Shown: positions 1-55,764 of the stretch, in pieces
Position numbering within the stretch: position 1 is the stretch's first letter
How the letters are laid out: every line of letters starts with the position of its first letter
NCBI RefSeq assembly: GCF_032854445.1
Contig: NC_088295.1
Span: 52,371,249-52,435,248, forward strand
Length of the DNA: 64,000 bases
Direction of reading: 5' to 3'
Source of the DNA: Liolophura sinensis
Taxonomy: Eukaryota > Mollusca > Polyplacophora > Chitonida > Chitonidae
The notes under the pieces: generated by a model
The model's database searches: none
What the model was told of the DNA's origin: nothing
What the model saw: the letters and a program-made list of their open reading frames with translations, nothing else
Position numbers and translations under genes: made by a program

Positions 1-1100
1 AGGAACTCAGTTATACTGAGTATCTTTTAATTCTGACCACATATCCTTAACTTGGGACATTGTTGTTGAAAGGTGTATTATTAAATTTCCAAAAATTGAT
101 GATCTTGATGTATTTTTAAGGTAGAAATAGCAGAATATCAACTTATGATCACTTTTTGTACTGGGTTTCATTCTTATATAGTTTTTACAAATTTTGAAAG
201 TTACAATGATACAAGCCAAAAGTCAGTCCTTGACTAAGTGCTATTATTTTTCCGCCAGTGTAAATGACACAGTGTGTGAATTTTTCCCTCTCTATAGCAA
301 CTACACTTAACTCCCTTATTAGGTCATGCAAAGCTGAGCTGGTCTTGAGTGTTAGATAAGCTTTTTCTATCAATGTATGGACTGACCAGTGTATTACAGT
401 CGTCTCTAAGAATTAAATCGGAGCAATCAAAAATGTTTAATAAAATGGTAGTTACTAGACGGAAAAAGTTTTCTCTCAGTTAAAGAGATTGGGGCATATA
501 TGTTTGCTAAGGTGTATATATGACCACATTGCTCATTTTCAAGAAATGTATATCGATCTTCTAAGTCTTTCACCTGCTTCATTATTTTTTACAGGTTTAT
601 GAAATAAGGCTGATAGTCACCTAGACACATTGTTTCCACGGGAAAACTCTATCTGATCCCCCCATTCATTCATCCAAATTTTTCCTCGGATACTGAGCTG
701 TGCACTTCATGAAGGAAAAAAAATAGCTTTTTGACTTTTCAAATATAGAAACATTTCTGTTCTCTTATTTTTGTCCCTTATACCTCTTACATTTAATCAT
801 ATAACACATACCATAGTGAAAAAGTAAGAGCAGGCCTGTCATTTATTAAAATATTCAAATATCCTTTAAAATGTAAAGGAGTACTAGATTGAAAAAAAAA
901 ACTAACTCACTGGCTAAAGTGAGACTAACTTCTGCTACTGAGACTGCCTGAATGAAACAATTTAGATTTCCACTAATACAGACATATTAGGCCTACATGA
1001 TTTGTATTTATTTAACATAACAAATCAACACACGTGATATCTAGCATGTCATGAAGGGGCTCGCAACGAATGATGCTCGTCAGTCTGACTGTGTAAGAGT
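1..1100. other. AT-rich non-coding stretch upstream of RPL13A
   Basis: No exon-like reading frame, RNA gene or complete mobile element was recognised. Open frames are short, lie in unrelated phases and lack any familiar motif. It is probably intergenic DNA upstream of the RPL13A promoter. Confidence 0.5.
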
Positions 1101-1119
1101 TATCTCCCATAGCGGCGCT

Positions 1120-1185
1120 AGCTTCTTCCGGTTGGCCACCGTGATTTAGCCACGTGCAACCCGCGATCCTGCCTTTTTCACCGAC
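1120..1185 (+). promoter_or_regulatory. RPL13A: RPL13A promoter and TOP-type 5' UTR
   Basis: Directly before the inferred start codon there is a pyrimidine run, cctttttc (1172-1179), which fits the 5'-terminal oligopyrimidine tract of ribosomal protein mRNAs. Transcription would then begin at about C1172, leaving a 5' UTR of about 14 bases, typical for this class. Upstream are an E-box palindrome CACGTG (1151-1156) and an ETS-like TTCCGG (near 1125). TOP tracts couple translation to growth signalling through mTOR and LARP1 in animals. The exact start site is inferred. Confidence 0.6.
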
Positions 1186-4100
1186 ATGGGTTTCCAGAAT
1201 AAGGTAGTTCGCGAAGCACAATACATTTAATGCTCTTGTTAGCAGTAACGGTCCGTTTGGTGTACATGAAACATTTATATGTGTCATTCAAATAAAGGCC
1301 TTTTGATTGTAAGGATGATTTTCCTGATGGCATGCGTTACTTTAAGTTATAACTTGATATTTTGTCTCGTCTTTTCTTTACAACAACAACAACAAGTATA
1401 ATTCAGTGACCTGAGTGATCTTCTTCCTTCTTAAATATTCTGGCATTGACCTCGTTGAATTTAACGTTGTCGAATTACAACAGATACCATTCTTTCGGCT
1501 TTTCATCACTGAAACGAAACTGCAGAGAACGTTGTTATGATATTGGTTGAGAAATACCCACCGCAAGGGTGTCTTCGCGAAATATTTCGCTTGGGAGGAG
1601 CCATAAACTCTTTTAAACGGATTTGTATAGTTCAAGCATTCCAGTCCCTCGCAAGGAGCGAAGGAGGAGGGAATAAGTAACATGGAGCTAACTAGAGGGA
1701 ATTCTGATTTTTGTCGAGTGCTCAAGTTGAAAATACTAAAGCACATGGGAACTATCCTATGTGAAGGCTACATGCATACTGGTTACTTTGCCAGAAAGAA
1801 TTTCCTTATCTGAAAGATATATTTTCATTTTCCATGCAAAATTTTTCATTGCGTATCTCACCTGGGTAAATTTGCTTTATTTTCACCTCCAGTACTCCTA
1901 GTCATGTGACCCAGTCCTGTCAACGTGTTTGGATGAGTGACCAAAAGTTCCCCTTAATTCAGGTTGTCGAGCTATGTCTCCTGTAAAAATTGCTCCCCTA
2001 GTTTCTTACTGGAAGTGCTAGATATTGATCATCCCAAGTGAGGAGTTTGTTACAACATGTAAAGTGTATGAAGATTTCTAATTTACTGAACAAATTCACT
2101 TGGATTTGTTCTGTGGGCAACATTTCTGACAGGCTACCAACATATAACTGTATCTGATGGTGTCAACATGTCAAAATCGAAATTATTTATTAAAACTCAA
2201 CGTGACATTTTGATATTTCACACCCAGATGCTATGAAAGAAGTTGTAACATATATAAATATTAAATAAGCCTGGACTAAGGTTTCTTCAGTTTTCTGTGA
2301 TGATTTGTTATCCACCAAGATTTGACCTGTTTTCATGAAAACAGCTCAACATGCACTACCATCTGAGATAACTGAAATAATTTGGAACACTTCAAGTCCT
2401 ACTCCAGGGAAGTTAGAGGTCCTAAAAACTGAAAGCAAGATGTATGTTCAGTGTGAATGGATCAAAAAGTTGATTTTGTTTCTATTTTGAGGTTTTTTTT
2501 AACTGCTTTGTCAGTTTGTGGATTCACATTTCATAGAAACTATTTTAATTAATGTATAATTTGAAGTTATTTCAACCTGTTTAAAAAAGGAATGTACATT
2601 GATGAAATCTGTGTATGAACTTTCATTGCTGTTCATCTCACTTGACCCGATAGAATGCACCATTGGCTCTATCTTGTTGTATGGTTGTCTTTGTCTTCAT
2701 AGCCAGTATCTCAAATGATCACCTCCATGTCATCCGCTCTACCGCCATGTTTATTCATGTCAAACACATGGTTACAATGAAGTGCTCCAAAATGCGCAAA
2801 TTCCTCATTAAATTATATCATATAATGTTAAATTGCTTCATAAAGATGAGGACTATAAACCAAGTACAGTGTCAACAGCTCGCACATATTTACTCTATCT
2901 CCTCTGAAATTTGGGACACCTGGTCCGTTCATTTTAGCCAATGTATAAGTAATTCTAGCAAGTATATTGAGTTTCTTTTTTCTTACATGGTTAGATCATC
3001 TAATGAACAACATGCTCGTATCTTTACTGTTCCAAAAGGCCGGTAAAGAGATGTAATATTCTACTTTCAACACTGGTAATACCGAAATTTTAAAGAATTA
3101 GGGTAGCAGCAGTTTCTTTGGCAGGCGTTTTGGTGAATGTGCGTTTTTGAATAAGCACTTAGCAGTCCACAACACTTCCTCTGAGGTAAAAACGGCTTTT
3201 TAGGTGATCGTGCATGAAGTGAAATATTTAAGTAAGGCATTTAACTCCCATTAGTGTTGACCAGGCGTGTTGCCACATGTATGTAGAGTTCTGCTATCTG
3301 TAACACCCAGGGTCTGCAGCTGTTCCATAGTCTTTTTTTTTTTTTATTATTGTTTGAATGTCTTCTGGCATTCACTAAACAGGCAATAACAATGGCATTC
3401 ATTCAGACCAGTACACGTTGGTTATTGTGGTCATCTTGCTGAAAGTCACTCCTAATGGCTTTGATAGCAGTAGCCTGGTTTCAGTGCGTTTTTTCTAGTA
3501 CTTGGTATAACAAGCAGCATTGTTTCCTCATGGCTGTCCGAGTACCTGATTTCCTCAGGTGAAAACTGGCTTCTGGTCCAGTAGAGGTAAACATTCTTGT
3601 GTATCATTAAATTCAAATACCTGTGAAAAATAGTGTCAGTTATTTCTCCAGTTATCTGTGATGATTTGTTATCCACCAAGATTTGACCTGTTATGAAAAC
3701 AGCTCAACATGCACTACCATCTGAGATAACAGAAATAATTTGGAACACTTAACATCTGATTTTTCTAGACTACTTGAAATAATGCTAGTGTGGTTAATAT
3801 TTTCAGCCCATTATCATTGACGGCAGAGGACATCTGTTGGGTCGTCTGGCTGCAGTTGTGGCCAAGACCATCCTCCAAGGTAAGTAGCTGTACCTACCTC
3901 ATTTTTTATACATTACGAGTTGTACCAGTGTGTTGAGTGCGTATATGGCCTTTTTATCTTTTGCTGAGGAGATCAGTAGTTTCATGCGCTCAGATCACAA
4001 GAGGAAATATTTATCTTCAAGATTTCTCTCACAATGAAAAGCATTAAGGGCAAGTTCGATAAGTACCGTTACTTTAGTCAATGCATGCTGTTATTTCACG

Positions 4101-7100
4101 CTGGCAAAGACGAAGGTCATAATGGACATCACAAATCACACGCGAAGAAGAGCACAAGGTTTGGCTTAGTTGAGCAGAGAGAAAATACTTGCCTTATGTG
4201 AACTGCTAGATAGTCATTTTTCGATTTCGTTAGTAAGGGTGTGCAATTTAACTGTTTCAAAACAAAGTTACAAGAAGTTTTTCCACCTGTTACATTGTCA
4301 GCAATCTTTACTGTGGTCCGGGACAGTGACTATGTACAGAAAATACATCCACTTGAGACTGTATTCCTCATTAGGTCAGCCCAAGTGGTAACTTTTCGAA
4401 AGTGGTGTGACCAATCAGAAGCCTAGAATTTTCTCTGAATTGTTATAATTAATGTCTTAATTGACAGTAATGGTTGATACATATAGTGACACAGATTTCA
4501 GACCATCTTGGGTGGCACATAAACCAGTTTAGCTTACTGGCAAAATGACCCGTGTACCTTTATATCAAGGTGATTATTCCTTAGCTTATTAAGCTGGAAA
4601 TTTTGAACAGTTTGCTGAACAACAACAACAGGAAGTTTGGTACAGCATGCATTCAACTCACAAGACACCTCGCAGCTCAGAGCAAATAGAATAAAATTAC
4701 TTCTCAGCACTGCAGGTGGCCAAAACAATGTGTGAAAACTTAACTAGAACAATCCCTTTCTCAAATTTAAACGAAACAAAGGCTTTCCCCATGGTTTAAA
4801 AAAAGTGTACACGCTGTCCGCTTCAACTGCTGTACACCTCAATAAAGATTCTGAAGTTAAAAATAATCTTGATGTGTGGCCTGAAAGCCTGCTCTAATGT
4901 TAGTAAGCTAATTCTCTGGATTAAATAAAGAACACAAGTTCTAGACAAATGTTGAAATTACCTCCTCATATATACTATTACTACTAACTTTCCAAAAATG
5001 GATGAAAGTGACAAACTGTCTAAACAAACTCAGAATTTTTGAGTTGGTTCTGCTAAATACAAAAATGAATTGCATTTGACTCCTCCTGGTCTTATATTTT
5101 CTGAAAGTTGTCGAGGGAATCATATGGTCCAAACTATCAGCTGTACAAGATAACATGCAAATGAGGCAGCGCAAAGATTCTCTTATGCAACGTTTGCTCG
5201 TGGATCGCACATGCATATCGCCCTCTCGGATTGCAGAAATAACGTGTGTCGGATTCTTTAAAGGAAAAGACCTCTAAAACGCGAAGATAGATCACTTAAA
5301 ATTATGCACAAATGTACTTGCATTTTTTTTTTTTGAGAAGAGAGTTAAAGGCTTTCAAACATTTGAATTCCAAGGTGGGCTTTATGGACCATATTACCAG
5401 ATTTTAGGAACTCTGGATGTCACAGGAAGTTTTTCCAACTTTCTCATGACACTGAATGTTGTACATGTAATAACTTTTTTCACCCATGAGTAAAAGATTA
5501 CTGAAATAACGCTCCCAAAAATTCCTTCCTTCTCGTGATTATCAGGAAAAAAGATGGTGTTCCTAGATACTGTCAGTATGGCTCATAAAGGCTACCATAG
5601 AATTCAAATATTTGAATGCCTTTAAATGTGATGTTTAAAAGTGAGTATATTATGTATATTCTCAAAGCCTAAAGTCTAAAGTGTGTAACTTGCACTTTCA
5701 CTGGATTAGACTTCTTTGTTGTTAGGATTTTGATTCAGGATGCTGTTTGTTTCTCTGCAGGACAAAGAGTTGTTGTTGTGCGATGTGAGGGCATCAACAT
5801 TTCTGGAAACTTCTACAGAAACAAATGTGAGTTGGGTTGTATGTCTAATGTTCTTCCACTGCTGGTCACTGGAGTATGGCTTAAAACAATCAAGCAAAAA
5901 AAAAAAAAAAACTAAGATAGACATTAAGTATTTGATACTTGAAGCAAAGCCTCTGATTTACAAATCATAATTAATACATGGGCTGATGTGATTGTGATAA
6001 ATTGGAAGAAATTTGATCTATTTTAATTTAGTATTGAACCCAAGCCTGGAAATATGATGAAAAGCATTTCCTTACCTACTCTGATGTATAATGAAGGAAA
6101 TGATTAAGCTGAGATTAGGCTGTTATAGCTGTAGGGCAGGCAGAGGTTGGGTTGATCTGGTTGGTACTAAACCTGCAACTATTCATTTCAGTGAAGTACC
6201 TGAACTACCTGAGGAAGAGGTGTAATGTAAACCCAGCTCGTGGCTCCTTCCACTTCCGTGCCCCCAGCAAAGTCTTCTTCAAGGCTGTCAAGGGTAAATC
6301 TCAGTTACAGACAAACTGTTAGATATCTAAGATACCTACAGATATCCCGAGAATGGCTATGTTTAATTTCACAAATTATTAGGTCTTCGTTTCTTGGGAA
6401 TACTTATTCCTTATTGTTTGTCTTAATTACTCCTTGGAAAGTTAACAAAGGAAACCAATGGGTTCTAATGAATTTTCATGAACTGTCAGATACTTTTGGG
6501 ACTACTTGCGCACGTGGAGTTCGGATTGGGGTGTTATCTGAATTACATTTCAGAATTATGATAAATTGGAGTGGGATTCGTGGCTGGAAGACGCAAGTTC
6601 AGGGTCTCTAAAAATACCACTCTTCCTCATGAATGCATTCAGTGAGTTGGTGGGCTCGCAAAGTCACAGACGTTGACATTGTAGAAACAAATGGCTGCCA
6701 AGAATCCCAAGATAGAAATTGAATTTGAAGCTTTTTCCCCCAGTCCTGCTGGAATCCTGTGGCGATGATGATTATTTTTCTTACCTACATTGGTTGATAT
6801 CATCATGATAGGAATTATAAATCTGATGCCACTAGTCAGACTCCTGTCTGGAATGACTTGTGTCCTCTTGATGGTCCCTGTCAACAGTTTTCTGTTTTTC
6901 ATGAGAATTTTGGAAAATTTTATGTACATATGTTTTTACCCATGTCGTACTGTATTAAATGGTGGACATTTGTGTTGAACAAGTTATAAGATAATGTGCA
7001 ATATGACAGGGTTTAATGTGTTACATTACATTGCTTTGCCAGCAACTTGCGGATGATTGTGGGTTTCCCCCGGGCTCTGCCCGGTTTCCACCCACCATAA

Positions 7101-10100
7101 TGCTGGTCGCCATCTTATAAGTGAAATATTCTTGAGTAGGCCGTAAAACACCAATCAAATAAATAAATAAATATAAAGCTCAAAACATGCACTGAGGCGA
7201 TGTATAGGTCTTACAATCGAGAAATTGTAGCTGGATCTAGAGGCACTTAAAGATCTTTAAGTTACATTGCCTGAACAGGGTCTTTGGTGTGCAATTATAA
7301 TCTCCTCCCAAAGTAATCGTGACCATTTAATCAAAAATTTAAACAATACTGACCTGTAAGTTTGATTGTGATTCTACCTAAACATATGTCAGGAACCGAA
7401 AAATTACGTGAGATTGTGCTCGTGAGTTTTGCATCAGTATGTAGAGCTGAGCAAGTGAAAACATTGGATTACTGGGGGGGATATTTTCAGGAGGCACATA
7501 ATTCCTCTGACTGACCTATCACTGTAGAATCACAATGAATCTACAACGTAAGTCTCTTGTCAAGGGTTTTTTTCACTTTGAAACCACGTGAGGTTTTGAA
7601 GCCAGTGGCCACTTAATGTGTGCTTATAGTGATTCATGTATTGTATATAGACATGGATATTACTAAGGAAATACAGCAAAGTATTAGTAAAAACACCAGG
7701 AATTTTTTTTTATATCACTTGATGGCTGGCTGGCTGGCTTTAAACAGGTCAATGCTAAAGGGACATTATAATATTATAATTAAATTTTTATCTAGCACAG
7801 TCCAGTAAGTGACTTCCAAAATTGGCCTTTGCAAGTAACGTATCATAAAATGAGTGAAGGTCGTTAAAGATGACCACCTTGCACTGAACAGGATCAGGTT
7901 TATTGGGGTATTTCTACTTTTAGCTTTAGAAACAGAAGCTGCTTGTGCCTTGTGAGCATGAAACAGATTTGCGTCAACTCCTGCCAGCTGGAGTAACAAT
8001 TTTATTCACACTGCAACCAATCTCTGGATGATGTGGTTGCAGGAAACAAAGAGTTACCTCCCCCTATACCTTTTCTTTCAGCATACTTTTTCAAATAGTG
8101 AGTGAGTGCTTAGGGTTTAACGTCGTACTCAACAATTTTTCAGTCATATGACGACGAAGGAATCCATAGGGTGCATGTACGTGTAATGTGCCTCCTTGTT
8201 GCAGGACGGATTTCCACCGCTCTTTTATTTAGTGCTGCTTCACTGAGACAACTTACCGAAGGCAAGTAAGCCGCCCCGCCCGAGCCATTATACTGATACG
8301 GGTCAACCAGTCGTTGCACTATCCCCTTCATGCTGAACGTCAAGCGAGGAAGTTACAACTTCCTCTTTTAAAGTCTTAGGTGTGACTCGATCAAGGATTG
8401 ATCCTGGATATACCGGTCCCGAAGCGGACGCTCTACCACCTGTGCTATCCGGGCCAGTCTTTTTCAAATAGTGAAGAAAGCAAATCATAACGCATTAAAT
8501 CAGTCGGTTTAAGGTGCCTACCAGGTTTGCTAATTTTCACCAAAGATGTAACAACGATCACAAACTTTGATTATGTGAGCTCCATGTCATTGACATCAAA
8601 TAACTGAAGGAGTCTGGTACCTTTGCGCAGTATGTAAAGATAACAGAACAGTAACTTTAAACGTTAAGTGATTTAAAGTCAAACTTTTAAGGGGTGATGG
8701 CATCCTCAAATACTAAAACACAGCACCAAGGTTCCAGTTGTTCACATATCGTGGATACGATGGCTTTCTTTCAAAAACAACTTTGATTAAACCACGCTGT
8801 GAGTTCAAGCCCAGCTCATGCTTGCTTCCACTCCGGCTGGACGTGGGAAGGTCTGCCAGCAAGCTGCAGATGGTCATGGGTTTCCTCCCGGCTCTGCCTG
8901 GTTTCCACCCACCATAATGCTGGCTGCCGTGGTATAAGTGAAATATTCTTGAGTACGGTGTAAAACACCAATCAAATTAATAGATCAATTAAACCATTTC
9001 ACTATTAGATGACTACCAGATCAGGTAGCACTGTTTCTCGCGAGCCAACAGTGGACACTATATCTTGTTCTGTATCTGCATTTGGTGGGGTATTGCTGCT
9101 CCAAAAAAAGGGTCCTTTTCCCTTCCTTTGTAACGGGACTTAGTAATCTGATTTCATTTTCCAAGAGGCATCAGGGATATGTTTTTTGACCCTGGCATCT
9201 AGCATTACAGCCAGTCTGATATGCTTTCTTGGATTCTTTTAGTTGCTGAGGCAAATTGTTGCCGAAGAGTAACTCAGTTGCCCGGATGTCATGGGTATAG
9301 ATACTGACGTACTCTTTAGTCAGTGCATCTATTGCCATGGGAACTACCGTGTTAAAGTTCATTGGAGTTGGGGCTTTGTTGCAAATCAACAAAATAGCAG
9401 TGAGTTGTGCAACAGCCAACTTCATCTTAAGCATAGTGTTCTGGATGTTAGAAAGTAGATCAACATGCTTGTCCAATACACTCCCGTCACCAGGATTCTC
9501 TCTGAATCGGCAGATTCCAACATTTATCTGCATCCACTGTTCAGGGAGGCCTTGGCACTAACCACCATTGTATAGTACAGCTTTCAAATCCAGCCAATCA
9601 ATCAGTCCAAGTGTAGTGAACATTTTACTTCACCAGAACTTGTTTAATTTGTTTTCTCAGTTGAGCCATTCGACATTCGCAAGATGTGTTTAATGTGAAT
9701 ATTTGTGATGTTGAAAACATCAATCACATAAATAAAATCTGCACAAAAGTGTAATTGTGGCTTGACAGATGTGCACGTGTACACCTGTAGGCATCCTTTT
9801 CAATGTATTCCCAGAAGGGGTAGCCGAAAGTCCTGTTTTATGAAAATCCAGAATTTTTGTTACCTTGCAGATAGTTTTACACTGTATGCCACAGTGTTAA
9901 GTACAGGTTTAATAAATAACCTTGTAATCCTTCTGGAAGGGACAAGAACGTCATCTGGGGTGTTTTGTTCGTTTTGGTTGTGCACTACTGGAGTTGTGAT
10001 CATTTCACCCGTGATGAATTGTAACTTTTTACTTGGATTGGTTGAATTACCGTGATATGATCAATTACCGTGATATGATCAGTTACCGTGATATGATCAG

Positions 10101-10432
10101 TTACCGTGATATGATCAATCTCCTGAAACCCCACATCTGTCAAGTTATCACAGAACAAGAATGTTCTGTTATTCTTTAATCTTTTCGCATGTTTGCAATG
10201 TGTTATTTTCAAGCCAATTCTGAGGGCATTATTCTGTGTATAGTTATAAACCTATACTTTTTGAGAAGCCCTGAAATTTGCCAATCCAACCAGAATCATT
10301 TTGTCTCTAAATACAAATTAAAAACATCCATAAATTTTACGGAAATTTGTGCTTTCACCTGTGAAAAGGCTTAGGAATTGTATGTTGTACTTATGATCTG
10401 TATGTGTTACTAAAGATGCAAGCTTCATATAA

Positions 10433-10475
<43 letters not shown>

Positions 10476-12444
10476 TGTAAGTATAGTATCTACATCCCAT
10501 AGTTCTCTCAAAATGTTTCAAAATATTGGAAACACAGAGTTGAAAGGTTGAAGAATAGAGTGCAGTGAAATATTCTTGAACATGGCATGCAAACTTAACA
10601 TTGTAGTAAGGTATCGACCGGTGTAATGGGATTGAAAAGATGAGATTAGCCTGTGCAGGGTTTTGGTAAAAGTTTTGTTCTTCACCCTGGATTGTGCACT
10701 AATCAGTCACATTTATATTAATGTAATTTAGGTATGGTGCCACACAAACTATTCAGAGGAAAGGAAGCGTTGGCTAGACTGAAGGTGTTTGAAGGAATCC
10801 CGGCACCTTATGATAAACAGAAGCGCCTTGTGGTACCATCAGCCCTGAGAGTTATCCGGCTCGATCCCTGCAGGAAGGTACAAATAGATAGTCCATAGAA
10901 AAATCAACCCCAGAATTTGTCTGGGTACGTTGTAATACAGCAGTGTCCATGGCACTGCACCTTGCCAGCTAAGATGACATTTCTAGAGTTTAAAGGGAAT
11001 TTTCATGGCAGATGGCTTAACATTAGAAATGATAAAGCAAATAGCTGTCCTGTGTGACTTATCAATACATAGGCAGCGAATGGGATGCACATAGGATATA
11101 CACAAGAATGGGGTCATTTATTGCTATTTGTTTAACATCAGAGGCTTCAGGAACTGCACACAATTCAGCTCTTGTTTTTGTATGTGTTTTAAGTGTGTTT
11201 TTTGCATTTGTTTTTAAACTACTAAGTAAAGCTTAACGTTGTCACCATTGAAGTCAGAACTCATCAGTGTGCATATTAATTACTGTAAATTACAAAATTC
11301 ACGATTTCAGTTATTTATGTCGTATTGAGCTGAAGTTTTGCATGCATGTGTCTCCTACATGCAAGTTCTTCAGTAGCCTTGCTACCAGATCTAGTTTCTT
11401 GCTCTTTGTAACTTCTGACTTACAACGATGAAGCTTATAGCGAGATAAAACGCTACTGGTGCTTCCGTTACAGTACTGTACTCTGAACAGACTTTCTCAT
11501 GAGGTGGGATGGAAATACCAGAAAGTAATTGGCACTTTGGAAGAAAGACGGAAGGTGAAATCAAAGCGTTTCTATGAAAGGAAGAAACAGGAACTGGTAA
11601 GATGTTGCATGATAATGACCTTGGCTAACATAGTTATGCAGACTGTTGCAGTTCACAGCTTCACCATTCGAGGTCACATGTTCAAATCTAGACCCAGCCA
11701 TCTTGTGCGAGGCTGACGATTTTCTTCTGAACATGATTTTGTCAAGTCTGCATATTTATGAAATTGAAGAGAATTTTAAAGTTAACAAGCCTTCCACCAG
11801 TAAGGAATACACATTTAAGTTTCTCCTCAGTGTGTGCATCTCACATGTAGAGAAAATCTGTTTATAGTTGCTTGAGCATAATTAGGTGAATCAGTATGTA
11901 TAAGCTGTTGCAATGTGACTGTAATGTGTGAGTAGGGAATGAGCCGGAATAAAAATTATTGAAAACAGTTCAGATAACTTTGGTTACATACTTTCACTTT
12001 AAAATTTGAATTTAGCTGATGTGCGGAAAACAACAAGCATTGACACTTAGCTGAACTCTTCAGTTTCTGTGAACATGTGACCATTATTCTATTGAAACAC
12101 ACTTGTGTATACACACTTAAAATTGATTCAGTCCTGTTTTGTAGTGTACAATTTTCATGGGTTTGGCTGGTTTTGCCCAACCATAATACTTTCCAATAGC
12201 TGTCAGTGATGATTTGTTTTCCACCACGAGTTGATCGTTCATGAAAACAGCTCAGCATGCACTACCATCTGAGACAGACAAAATGGCTCAGATTGAATGT
12301 TATTGTCGCACATTCTTGTACAGATAATGTTGAGTTTTGTTTTTCACTTTCTATTTTCAGCACCTTCGTCAACAGGCAAAGGAGAATGCACAGCCCAAAA
12401 TCGCTGAGTTCCAGAAAGTTATCGAGGGCTATGGTTACAGTTAA
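1186..12444 (+). CDS. RPL13A: 60S ribosomal protein L13a (uL13), seven exons
   Basis: Structural protein of the large cytosolic ribosomal subunit. Exons joined by splice sites and phase: 1186-1203, 3807-3879, 5761-5826, 6192-6293, 10732-10877, 11474-11596 and 12361-12444. They total 612 bases and encode 203 residues plus a stop, the same length as human RPL13A. The product begins MGFQNK, then [20 protein letters not shown], then [15 protein letters not shown], the uL13 signature. Later segments, such as EGIPAPYDK and HEVGWKYQ, also match the family; the tail ends in YGYS. Exon 1 codes for only six residues. It was chosen because it follows a TOP tract, carries a good donor and is in phase with exon 2. 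All introns are GT-AG. Introns 1, 3, 4 and 6 hold box C/D snoRNAs or candidates. Intron 4 is 4.4 kb, long for this gene type. Identification is very sure; exon 1 is slightly less so. Confidence 0.95.
2291..2372 (+). ncRNA. SNORD33: Box C/D snoRNA U33 (SNORD33) homologue, copy 1
   Basis: Lies in RPL13A intron 1. Box C GTGATGA is at 2297-2303 and box D CTGA at 2363-2366. The guide directly before box D reads atgcactaccat, as in vertebrate U33, which directs 2'-O-methylation of 18S rRNA (U1326, human numbering). The guide pairs with the conserved 18S stretch containing GGTGGTGCATG, with one G-U pair. Unlike copy 2, the 5' flank (ttttct) cannot pair well with the 3' flank (gataac), so the closing stem is weak. 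The copy may be poorly expressed or inactive. Confidence 0.72.
3651..3730 (+). ncRNA. SNORD33: Box C/D snoRNA U33 (SNORD33) homologue, copy 2
   Basis: Lies near the 3' end of RPL13A intron 1, about 76 bases before exon 2, a usual distance for intron-processed snoRNAs. Flanks GTTATC (3651-3656) and GATAAC (3725-3730) form a perfect six-pair terminal stem enclosing box C GTGATGA and box D CTGA (3721-3724). The guide before box D is the U33 sequence, identical to copy 1. The identity with copy 1 continues about 20 bases past the stem, so the two arose by duplication. This is the best-formed of the three U33 copies. Confidence 0.87.
6043..6121 (+). ncRNA. Candidate second U34-like box C/D snoRNA
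   Basis: Lies in RPL13A intron 3. Box C TGATGA (6055-6060), internal D' CTGA (6081-6084) and box D CTGA (6109-6112) are flanked by AGCCT (6043-6047) and AGGCT (6117-6121), which can pair as an external stem. Before D' is cttacctact, sharing TTACCTAC with the U34 guide in the next intron. The stem is set 4-7 bases away from the boxes and C' is unclear. It could be a diverged U34 paralogue or a chance match. Confidence 0.42.
6759..6832 (+). ncRNA. SNORD34: Box C/D snoRNA U34 (SNORD34) homologue
   Basis: Lies in RPL13A intron 4. A perfect terminal stem GTGGC (6759-6763) / GCCAC (6828-6832) encloses box C ATGATGA (6765-6771), D' TTGA (6794-6797), a C'-like CATGATA and box D CTGA (6823-6826). The guide before D' reads ttacctacattg, the same as vertebrate U34, which targets 28S rRNA (U2824, human numbering). 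Mammalian U34 also resides in an RPL13A intron. It lies about 470 bases from the upstream exon and far from the downstream one. Confidence 0.88.
7037..7174 (+). mobile_element. SINE family A, 5'-truncated copy
   Basis: In RPL13A intron 4. It matches the body of the window's main SINE family (full copies at 25689 and 59336) from the 'gcggatg' segment to the tail 'gtataagtgaaatattc', ending in AAATA repeats. The tRNA-like head is missing. Confidence 0.75.
8098..8456 (-). mobile_element. SINE family B, tRNA-derived, full-length-like
   Basis: Read on the - strand, a tRNA-like head begins near 8456. It has an A-box-like segment (tagcacaggtggtagagcg) and a B-box-like one (tgatcgagtcac). The body ends in a distinctive tail containing cgttaaaccctaagcactc with repeated CACT. 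Tails of this kind are common in molluscan SINEs. A + strand fragment of the same tail is at 14020-14077. Confidence 0.7.
8793..8990 (+). mobile_element. SINE family A, partial copy
   Basis: Begins at the B-box-like gtgagttcaagcccagctc and runs through the conserved body to the tail and A-rich end. It lacks the first part of the tRNA-like head. In RPL13A intron 4. Confidence 0.75.
9171..9560 (-). pseudogene. Fragment resembling a DIRS-type retrotransposon gag-like region
   Basis: A 120-codon open stretch on the - strand inside RPL13A intron 4. Its end reads [18 protein letters not shown], similar to the 'LFGDDLPKxLKE' segment found near the end of the first ORF product of DIRS-like retroelements in invertebrates. 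A region of alternating hydrophobic residues comes before it, as in those proteins. No tyrosine recombinase, reverse transcriptase or split repeat was found nearby, so it is a relic. The family assignment rests on remembered motif similarity and is tentative. Confidence 0.4.
10047..10118. repeat. 18-bp tandem repeat, four copies
   Basis: Four near-perfect copies of ttaccgtgatatgatcag in RPL13A intron 4. The unit includes the palindromic core TGATCA. Confidence 0.9.
10435..10472. repeat. (AT)n microsatellite
   Basis: About 19 uninterrupted AT dinucleotides in RPL13A intron 4. Confidence 0.97.
11250..11410. repeat. Copy of an unclassified dispersed repeat
   Basis: In RPL13A intron 5. The segment with ttgagctgaagttttg, followed by a 'catgtgt.tcctaca' stretch and 'gctaccaatct'-type end, recurs at about 45640-45750. 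A shorter related piece is at 44880-44945. No coding content was seen. Confidence 0.55.
12200..12277 (+). ncRNA. SNORD33: Box C/D snoRNA U33 (SNORD33) homologue, copy 3
   Basis: Lies in the last RPL13A intron, about 84 bases before exon 7. Box C GTGATGA is at 12206-12212 and box D CTGA at 12269-12272. Flanks CTGTC (12200-12204) and GACAG (12273-12277) form a stem. The guide gcatgcactaccat is the U33 sequence shared with copies 1 and 2. The central part differs (ttgatcgttcatgaaaac), so this copy is older than the split of copies 1 and 2. All hallmarks are intact. Confidence 0.86.
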
Positions 12445-12949
12445 ACATTTCCTGTAAAGACTCACACAATCTGAATGAAGAAAAAAAAATCATGCAATCT
12501 CAAAGTGTTATGTTTCATTTACACTCTTTTTTTAGCCGTCTACTTTTTCATGCTTTCACGTGTATAAGACCACTGAGAGTGCAGTTCTAGACACTTGCTA
12601 ATTGAGACGCTGAAAGTAACCTGGTAGATTACAGACATCTCCCGCGAAACACTCACGGCGGGTGCTATCGGAATGCCAGCTGAAGTATAGGCCTACCCTA
12701 ACCTATAAAGCCAGCTTTTCCCAACAGCTTATACACGGTAACTCATGATGTCATTTTAAGTATACACGCTTGTTAAACAAGTACAGAAAAACAAGACAAA
12801 AACATTGATGCCGGAACATCAACCCAATGAAAATCTCTCTCTGCCCAAAACACTTGTCATGCCGTTTTCCTGGCTGTGTTTTACAAAGTATGCTATCCTA
12901 TGTCAAAAATCATGTGGCATTATTTACAGGGGAACATTCAACACCCCAG

Positions 12950-13192
12950 TGGGGCCTCTGAGCCCAGGTGATAAGCACGCCAGCGCGGCTCAATGACCCA
13001 GGAACCTACCACCAATGCTGTCCAGCTCATGCTATGTTCCTCCCTGGCCGTACATGGGAAGGTCTGCAAGCAATCGGCGGATGGCCACGCGTTTCCAATG
13101 GGCTTTGCCCGGTTTTCTCACGCCATAATGCTGGCTGCCATGGTATAAGTGAAATATTCTTGAGTAGGGCGTGAAATACACATCAAATAAAT
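12950..13192 (+). mobile_element. SINE family A, diverged copy
   Basis: Contains the degenerate head (gcacgccagcgcggctcaat), the body and the tail tataagtgaaatattcttg, ending in AAATAAAT. It is more diverged than the copies at 25689 and 59336 and part of the B-box region is deleted. Confidence 0.72.
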
Positions 13193-14019
13193 CCACACCC
13201 CACCGCAGCAGGATTCTCGTAGATCTGCCGACCTCGTCTTCCTCCCCCACGGTGTGTTAGGGGCCGATATAATAATGGAACATGGATGATTGCGGTTTGA
13301 TCATTGGATTAACGATGTTGCTTTACATATGTATATGGAAACCAGCTGATATTATGGGCAAAATAAATGAAATGGCCCACAGAATGCCGATGTTATAACT
13401 AAAATTTCTGACCTGAATACTGCAATATTATACCAACGGAGCAAGTGAAAGTTTCATGACAAATGCCACCTGTTGTAACTTGAAATGAATGAATACCGGT
13501 ACACAATATTCTCAACTGCAAGCATTCAGAGGAATTGTTTTTTTTTTTTTTGCGAAAGTGGGTAATGTCTTCCTGGCAGACCTGGGCATCTCCTCAAACT
13601 GGATGTCACACGGTAACTTAGCAGCAACTGTTTTCTTTTGACCAGTCCACCGAGTGTATACATACAGATATAACTGAAGACTGGGGAATGATGTAAGCCT
13701 ACGCTTATTACTTCGGGCTGCTTGTGAAATCTGCCAAGCATAAGTTACAGCCTTTGTGGTTAACACATTAAAAAAAGTGATCATGGTCTAGCCTACATTA
13801 CGAAATGGAGAATTCAGCGTGCATGTTAATATCAGGACATGAGATATACCATGTAAAATGTAGCGGTATTGGGACTTTTGTGAAATGGGTGTATGATTAG
13901 ATGGTGATTGACATAAATATTTATATTTACCCCCCCCCCCCTGCCAACACATCCAGATTTATAAGAAGGCTCTACCTGTTGGCCCCTCTGCATGGTGATG
14001 TTTTCATAGCCTACCTCGC

Positions 14020-37920: not shown

Positions 37921-55764
<17,844 letters not shown>

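Follow-up and report, generated by a model that had tools for sequence, protein, structure and literature searches.

Introns of RPL13A in the chiton Liolophura sinensis hold box C/D snoRNAs of the U33 and U34 types, and we consider it probable that these are ordinary intron-encoded C/D snoRNAs, three U33 and one U34, whose tie to RPL13A has been inherited while the occupied introns have changed. The DNA analysed, referred to here as the window, is a single stretch of 64 kb, and an Rfam search of its whole length at gathering thresholds returned three matches, all of them to SNORD33 (RF00133), all in RPL13A and all on the sense strand. The sequences, their family assignment by Rfam score (weaker for U34), the gene model and the complementarity to conserved rRNA are supported directly. 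The U33 and U34 RNAs would be released from spliced RPL13A introns, and each would be expected to assemble a C/D RNP and to guide 2'-O-methylation, with the D guide of U33 directing it to the uridine of 18S that corresponds to human U1326, and the D' guide of U34 to the uridine of 28S that corresponds to human U2824.

The host gene and its U33-type snoRNAs

RPL13A (uL13) is an intact gene of seven exons with AG/GT borders and an uninterrupted frame of 203 amino acids, its coding sequence running from 1186 to 12444 on the forward strand, exactly as an earlier sequence-only reading of this DNA had given it. Splice borders and reading frame place the exons at 1186-1203, 3807-3879, 5761-5826, 6192-6293, 10732-10877, 11474-11596 and 12361-12444 (+), with lengths of 18, 73, 66, 102, 146, 123 and 84 nt, and the introns between them (2603, 1881, 365, 4438, 596 and 764 nt) are in phases 0, 1, 1, 1, 0 and 0. 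The protein matches the Pfam family Ribosomal_L13 (PF00572), and uL13/L13a chains in the PDB align with it over almost its full length. When it was used as a query against the assembly (609 Mb, 632 contigs), all six of the matches fell in its own locus, and therefore no second copy is reported. A pyrimidine tract, CCTTTTTC, lies just upstream of the start codon (1172-1179, +); it resembles a 5'TOP start and is a putative start of transcription.

The three U33-type RNAs that the same reading had placed in RPL13A introns are borne out, two in intron 1 and one in intron 6, with RF00133 scores that exceed the cut-off of 44 bits and so place them in the SNORD33 family, and with E-values of 1e-8 to 1.1e-7. 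U33a (2290-2372, +, 56.2 bits) has its C box at 2297-2303 and its guide and D box at 2350-2366, and is followed in the same intron by U33b (3651-3730, +, 59.8 bits); U33c (12199-12278, +, 60.4 bits) is the copy in intron 6. Positions 2290 to 3730 hold two U33 copies within one intron. U33b ends 76 nt and U33c 82 nt ahead of the 3' splice site, which is the range optimal for C/D processing, and the corresponding distance for U33a is 1434 nt. In a genome search with RF00133, the three RPL13A copies are the only ones above the cut-off among the matches listed, and the fourth row, on C8 (L012), scores 26.6 bits with an E-value of 4.6. The genome searches with RF00133 and with the SNORD34 model, RF00147, scored the best first-look candidates alone (59 and 68), and therefore absence elsewhere in the genome is not proven.

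Of the 83 aligned columns of U33a and U33b, 79 are identical. Their similarity continues past the snoRNA for about 8 nt at the 5' end and about 20 nt at the 3' end, giving a duplicated unit of about 110 nt at a spacing of about 1360 nt; this is a dispersed duplication rather than a tandem one. U33c agrees with U33a in 69 of 83 columns, boxes and guide being without difference. Over 24 box-and-guide columns that we picked, with gaps counted as differences, U33a and U33c differ at none, as against 14 of 59 other columns (Fisher 0.008); the corresponding figures are 0/24 against 13/59 (Fisher 0.016) for U33b and U33c, and 0/24 against 4/59 (Fisher 0.32) for U33a and U33b. The terminal stem has six pairs in U33b, five of which are present in U33c, whereas U33a has one U.U mismatch, yet an extended outer stem in the fold. 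Two of the six pairs are changed on both sides among the three copies, a figure equalled by 47 of 500 shuffles and by none of the slid controls. Fold energies compared with 200 shuffles give z values of -2.10 for U33a and -2.37 for U33b, and U33c with its flanks has no advantage over shuffled sequence (z -0.46, 61/200 as good).

U34, the guides and a candidate in intron 3

The identity of the U34-type RNA that had been reported in intron 4 (6758-6833, +) is supported, although its RF00147 score, 31.8 bits with an E-value of 0.0085 over the 14 kb searched, is below the gathering threshold of 38; the locus nevertheless tops the matches listed in the genome search, the runner-up having 29.3 bits. 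A check of the introns with Rfam models, as the earlier reading had advised, succeeds for all three SNORD33 copies and falls short for SNORD34, and on its sequence we regard 6758-6833 as U34-type and not as a certified SNORD34 member. Its D' box (TTGA) is at 6794-6797 and its D box at 6823-6826; within intron 4 the 5' splice site is 464 nt away and the 3' splice site 3898 nt. A terminal stem of six pairs, including one GU, can be drawn, and this stem is not formed in the minimum-energy fold with flanks; the fold energy has a z of -1.63 relative to 200 shuffles. Guides, boxes and terminal stems had all been described as visible, and all are, with the reservations that the stem of U33a contains the U.U mismatch and that of U34 is not part of the minimum-energy fold.

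Weaker SNORD34 matches elsewhere in the genome include two loci that were inspected by eye (L004 and L005), and at a third (L006, RF00147 27.1 bits) the U34 core TTACCTACATTG is present, with CTGT where the D box is expected. Within intron 4 itself, a U34-like match at 10003-10078 (21.3 bits, E 4.6) was rejected as a guide, its best run to the conserved U34 stretch being 6 bp and the beginning of an 18-bp tandem repeat falling inside it; the array of 18-bp units spans 10045-10119 (4.2 copies), and a TA run comes after it, at 10436-10472. A dispersed repeat was noted by eye at about 7030-7175, 8810-8990 and 13010-13195, with a tail like AATCAAATAAATAAA and with similar stretches in L004 and L006, and it looks like a SINE.

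Guide pairing was scored against rRNA stretches taken to be conserved. The organism's own 18S and 28S rRNA or rDNA was not found in the genome searches, and therefore the U33 and U34 targets rest on sequence assumed to be conserved. Each of the three U33 copies pairs with this 18S over a run of 13 bp (11 WC, 2 GU) that reaches the D box, and all three place a U of that sequence opposite position -5, at the site equivalent to human U1326. The D' guide of U34, upstream of its D' box, forms a 19-bp run (16 WC, 3 GU) with the conserved 28S, with a U opposite -5, at what is presumably human 28S U2824; across the whole window, on both strands and with at most one GU allowed, no TTGA besides its D' box pairs with the U34 stretch in a run of at least 11. 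A published listing gives U33 with Um1326 (PMC3511168). Three of the 1431 CTGA or TTGA boxes in the window reach a run of at least 13 against 1.1 kb of conserved rRNA, and two of these are taken, from their scores, to be U34 and the intron 3 candidate described below. A 10-bp run of the U33a and U33b D' guide to a conserved 28S stretch, GATCTTGGTGG, is not claimed as a target, as 36 of the 1431 boxes reach at least 10, and the D' guide of U33c reaches only 6 bp.

A putative fifth C/D snoRNA is located in intron 3 (6043-6121, +), with TGATGA at 6055-6060, a D' box (CTGA) at 6081-6084 and a D box (CTGA) at 6109-6112. A 7 bp stem (6043-6049/6115-6121, two GU) is formed in its minimum-energy fold (z -1.86, 8/200 shuffles folding equally well). 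The weak Rfam match, to RF00440 (SNORD37), covers 6050-6114 and ends 77 nt ahead of the 3' splice site; its score of 21.2 bits (E 3.4) compares with a gathering threshold of 45, and a SNORD37 identity was dropped. The D' guide makes a 13-bp run (12 WC, 1 GU) with the conserved U34 region of 28S, with a G opposite -5, and the D' box is the only CTGA on either strand of the window with a run of at least 10 to the U34 stretch, although because this target was picked on resemblance to the U34 sequence the test is not fully blind. The D guide reaches only 7 bp, and a strict box-and-stem census missed the candidate. On its sequence, a possible undescribed C/D snoRNA at 6043-6121 is plausible.

Hosts and introns compared with vertebrates

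The earlier description of the arrangement as being that of mammals holds for the host gene and fails for the introns, human borders being assumed. Human RPL13A exon lengths are taken to be 15, 73, 66, 102, 86, 60 and 123 nt followed by the rest, and on these borders, judged by exon lengths and phases, the exons of the two genes map one to one, save that mollusc exon 5 corresponds to human exons 5 and 6, such that the introns here are equivalent to human introns 1, 2, 3, 4, 6 and 7 and human intron 5 is absent. By the same assumed borders, the U33 copies are in the equivalents of human introns 1, 1 and 7, and U34 is in that of intron 4; we take mammalian U34 to be in intron 5. None of the four snoRNAs is in its mammalian intron on these borders; a shared intron does not define the SNORD33 family, but positional orthology with mammalian U33 would require it. 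In mammalian RPL13A, U32a, U33 and U35a are given as residing in introns 2, 4 and 6 (PMC11308251), and U34 as residing in an intron adjacent to that of U33 (PMC4234469). The partnership seems to follow the host gene and not the individual intron; from the sequences, the host association looks old and the intron occupancy looks reshuffled.

Mammalian SNORD33 (RF00133, clan CL00054, RPL13A intron 4) and the RNAs found here are alike in C/D boxes and D guide, which follow the Rfam consensus, in length and in host, but the mollusc has U33 in triplicate, twice in intron 1 and once in intron 6, and the U32 partner was not found in the window. Mammalian SNORD34 (RF00147) is likewise matched in its three boxes (C, D' and D), in the D' guide TTACCTACATTG and in the RPL13A host, but here the score is below gathering and, on the assumed borders, the RNA is in the human intron 4 equivalent with human intron 5 absent. 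Gene group ENSG00000142541 is, we assume, RPL13A. For this group RF00133 is tabulated in mammals and an H/ACA snoRNA in Drosophila (PMC3511168, Table 2), and a figure legend has H/ACA snoRNAs in introns of sponge RPL13A (PMC3412847, Figure 5); both speak against an ancestral association with this host. SNORD33 has been reported in a tunicate (PMC5006418). The presence of two C/D snoRNAs per RPL13A intron, as in the stated prerequisite for the mouse RPL13A sno-lncRNA (PMC4234469), is found here also, although as two U33 copies in intron 1 and not as U33 and U34 joined by alternative splicing. Among the titles and openings of abstracts listed, none describes a molluscan RPL13A with either snoRNA; subscription journals were mostly outside this scope, and the observation may have been published.

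The earlier reading had looked in vain for U35 and U32 guides in the gene. For U35, there is no RF00211 match within window positions 1-14000 up to an E-value of 5, and the absence applies to RPL13A and is not a loss from the genome. The best U35 genome match among those listed is in an intron of ribophorin I, which is not known as a U35 host, with 37.4 bits, above the cut-off of 36 (L007 1501-1586). A second is in the sense orientation in the last intron of RPS11, with 32.7 bits, below 36 (L008 1501-1574, minus strand). The distance from it to the 3' splice site is about 530 nt, and its guide pairs with conserved 28S over 12 bp, placing a C opposite -5; the remaining five of the seven RF00211 rows have 28.4 bits or less. 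A more decayed U35-like element was seen by eye one RPS11 intron upstream (L008, around 2640-2740). Vertebrate U35A is in RPL13A, and U35B in RPS11. The RPS11 match of 32.7 bits is like SNORD35 (RF00211), and in chicken the U35 host is also RPS11 (intron 4; PMC2653536), whereas RPL13A here lacks an RF00211 match and the ribophorin I match is extra and higher-scoring. Given that U35 is in RPS11 both here and in chicken, with none found in the mollusc RPL13A, the vertebrate U35A in RPL13A may be a derived copy.

As to U32, whose D guide targets human 18S G1328, RF00133 gives no match in the window beyond the three U33-type copies, in agreement with the earlier reading. A U32-type pattern has one genome match (L009) and none for the reversed control, with about 0.5 expected by our own estimate, and L009 is not convincing as U32, with no Rfam match there and no host gene noticed. 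The best SNORD100 match is in the last intron of RPS12, with 39.5 bits, below the cut-off of 58 (L010 1501-1581, minus strand), and that strand carries another weak match at a distance of about 3.9 kb. RPS12 is described as a SNORD100 host from sponges to vertebrates (PMC3412847).

Probable inheritance and the alternative of independent entry

The tie of U33 and U34 to RPL13A most likely goes back to an ancestor shared by molluscs and vertebrates, with the occupied intron changing inside the gene through cis-duplication and loss. The ancestral bilaterian arrangement that the sequence-only reading had argued for is thereby retained at the level of the host, where it is the more economical account because two families share one gene and because U35-RPS11 and SNORD100-RPS12 are also shared, and it is given up at the level of the intron; one mollusc is compared with vertebrates, and repeated colonisation is conceivable. 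Absence from the mammalian introns also fits recolonisation, and since snoRNAs favour ribosomal-protein genes with high expression, U33 and U34 could have entered RPL13A independently in the two lines, the shared host being convergence. We regard this as unlikely. It gains from the finding that no snoRNA here (0/4, human borders assumed) is in its mammalian intron, from reports that 14% of shared snoRNAs have kept their positions between birds and mammals and that snoRNAs in 22 LECA introns show no homology (both PMC3511168), and from the H/ACA snoRNAs of sponge RPL13A (PMC3412847), but it requires two families to pick the same gene from dozens of ribosomal-protein genes. It must also accommodate U35-RPS11 (PMC2653536) and SNORD100-RPS12 (PMC3412847) as pairings common with vertebrates: all four families that we chose to search in the genome (SNORD33, SNORD34, SNORD35 and SNORD100) have a match in a vertebrate-used host, RF00133 alone being above its cut-off there.

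That the matches arise by chance, short C/D boxes being expected anyway in an intron-rich window, has next to no probability and is already contradicted. C and D boxes are degenerate and weak Rfam matches near an E-value of 1 are common, but the U33 copies have E-values of 1e-8 to 1.1e-7, and strict boxes combined with a stem of 4 bp or more are seen on the sense strand just once in each of introns 1, 4 and 6 (U33b, U34 and U33c; the rule misses U33a and the intron 3 candidate), and are absent from the antisense of the six introns and from both strands of 13001-35000. It is rather unlikely, in our estimate, that only U33b and U33c are functional, with U33a and possibly U34 being copies that are not expressed. 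The stem mismatch of U33a and its 1434 nt distance from the 3' splice site would be in keeping with this, as would the below-cut-off score of U34 and its 3898 nt; against it, both retain intact boxes and guides, the fold of U33a includes the extended outer stem, the U34 guide run is the longest of all, and no better SNORD34 is among the genome matches listed.

A bolder form of the inherited association, which we hold only tentatively and think somewhat doubtful, is that RPL13A has been a captive host since the bilaterian ancestor, with U33 and U34 hopping between its introns and a fifth guide bred from U34. If so, the intron 3 guide, shifted 4 nt relative to U34, would methylate a new guanosine, and the U33 twins could form the two ends of a sno-lncRNA some 1.4 kb long (2290-3730). 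Published comparisons stress snoRNA mobility (PMC3511168), whereas this mollusc keeps the hosts while the RPL13A introns differ; host fidelity is separable from intron fidelity, and the distinction is testable on existing genomes.

Elsewhere in the window, open reading frames at 41817-42662, 52301-52576, 53053-53466 and 54658-55764 (within 41817-55764) look by eye like exons of a ZC3H12/N4BP1-like RNase gene. One contig of the genome carries eight Haemocyan_bet_s units in tandem, all above the cut-off, which marks the genome as molluscan, this domain being that of molluscan haemocyanin.
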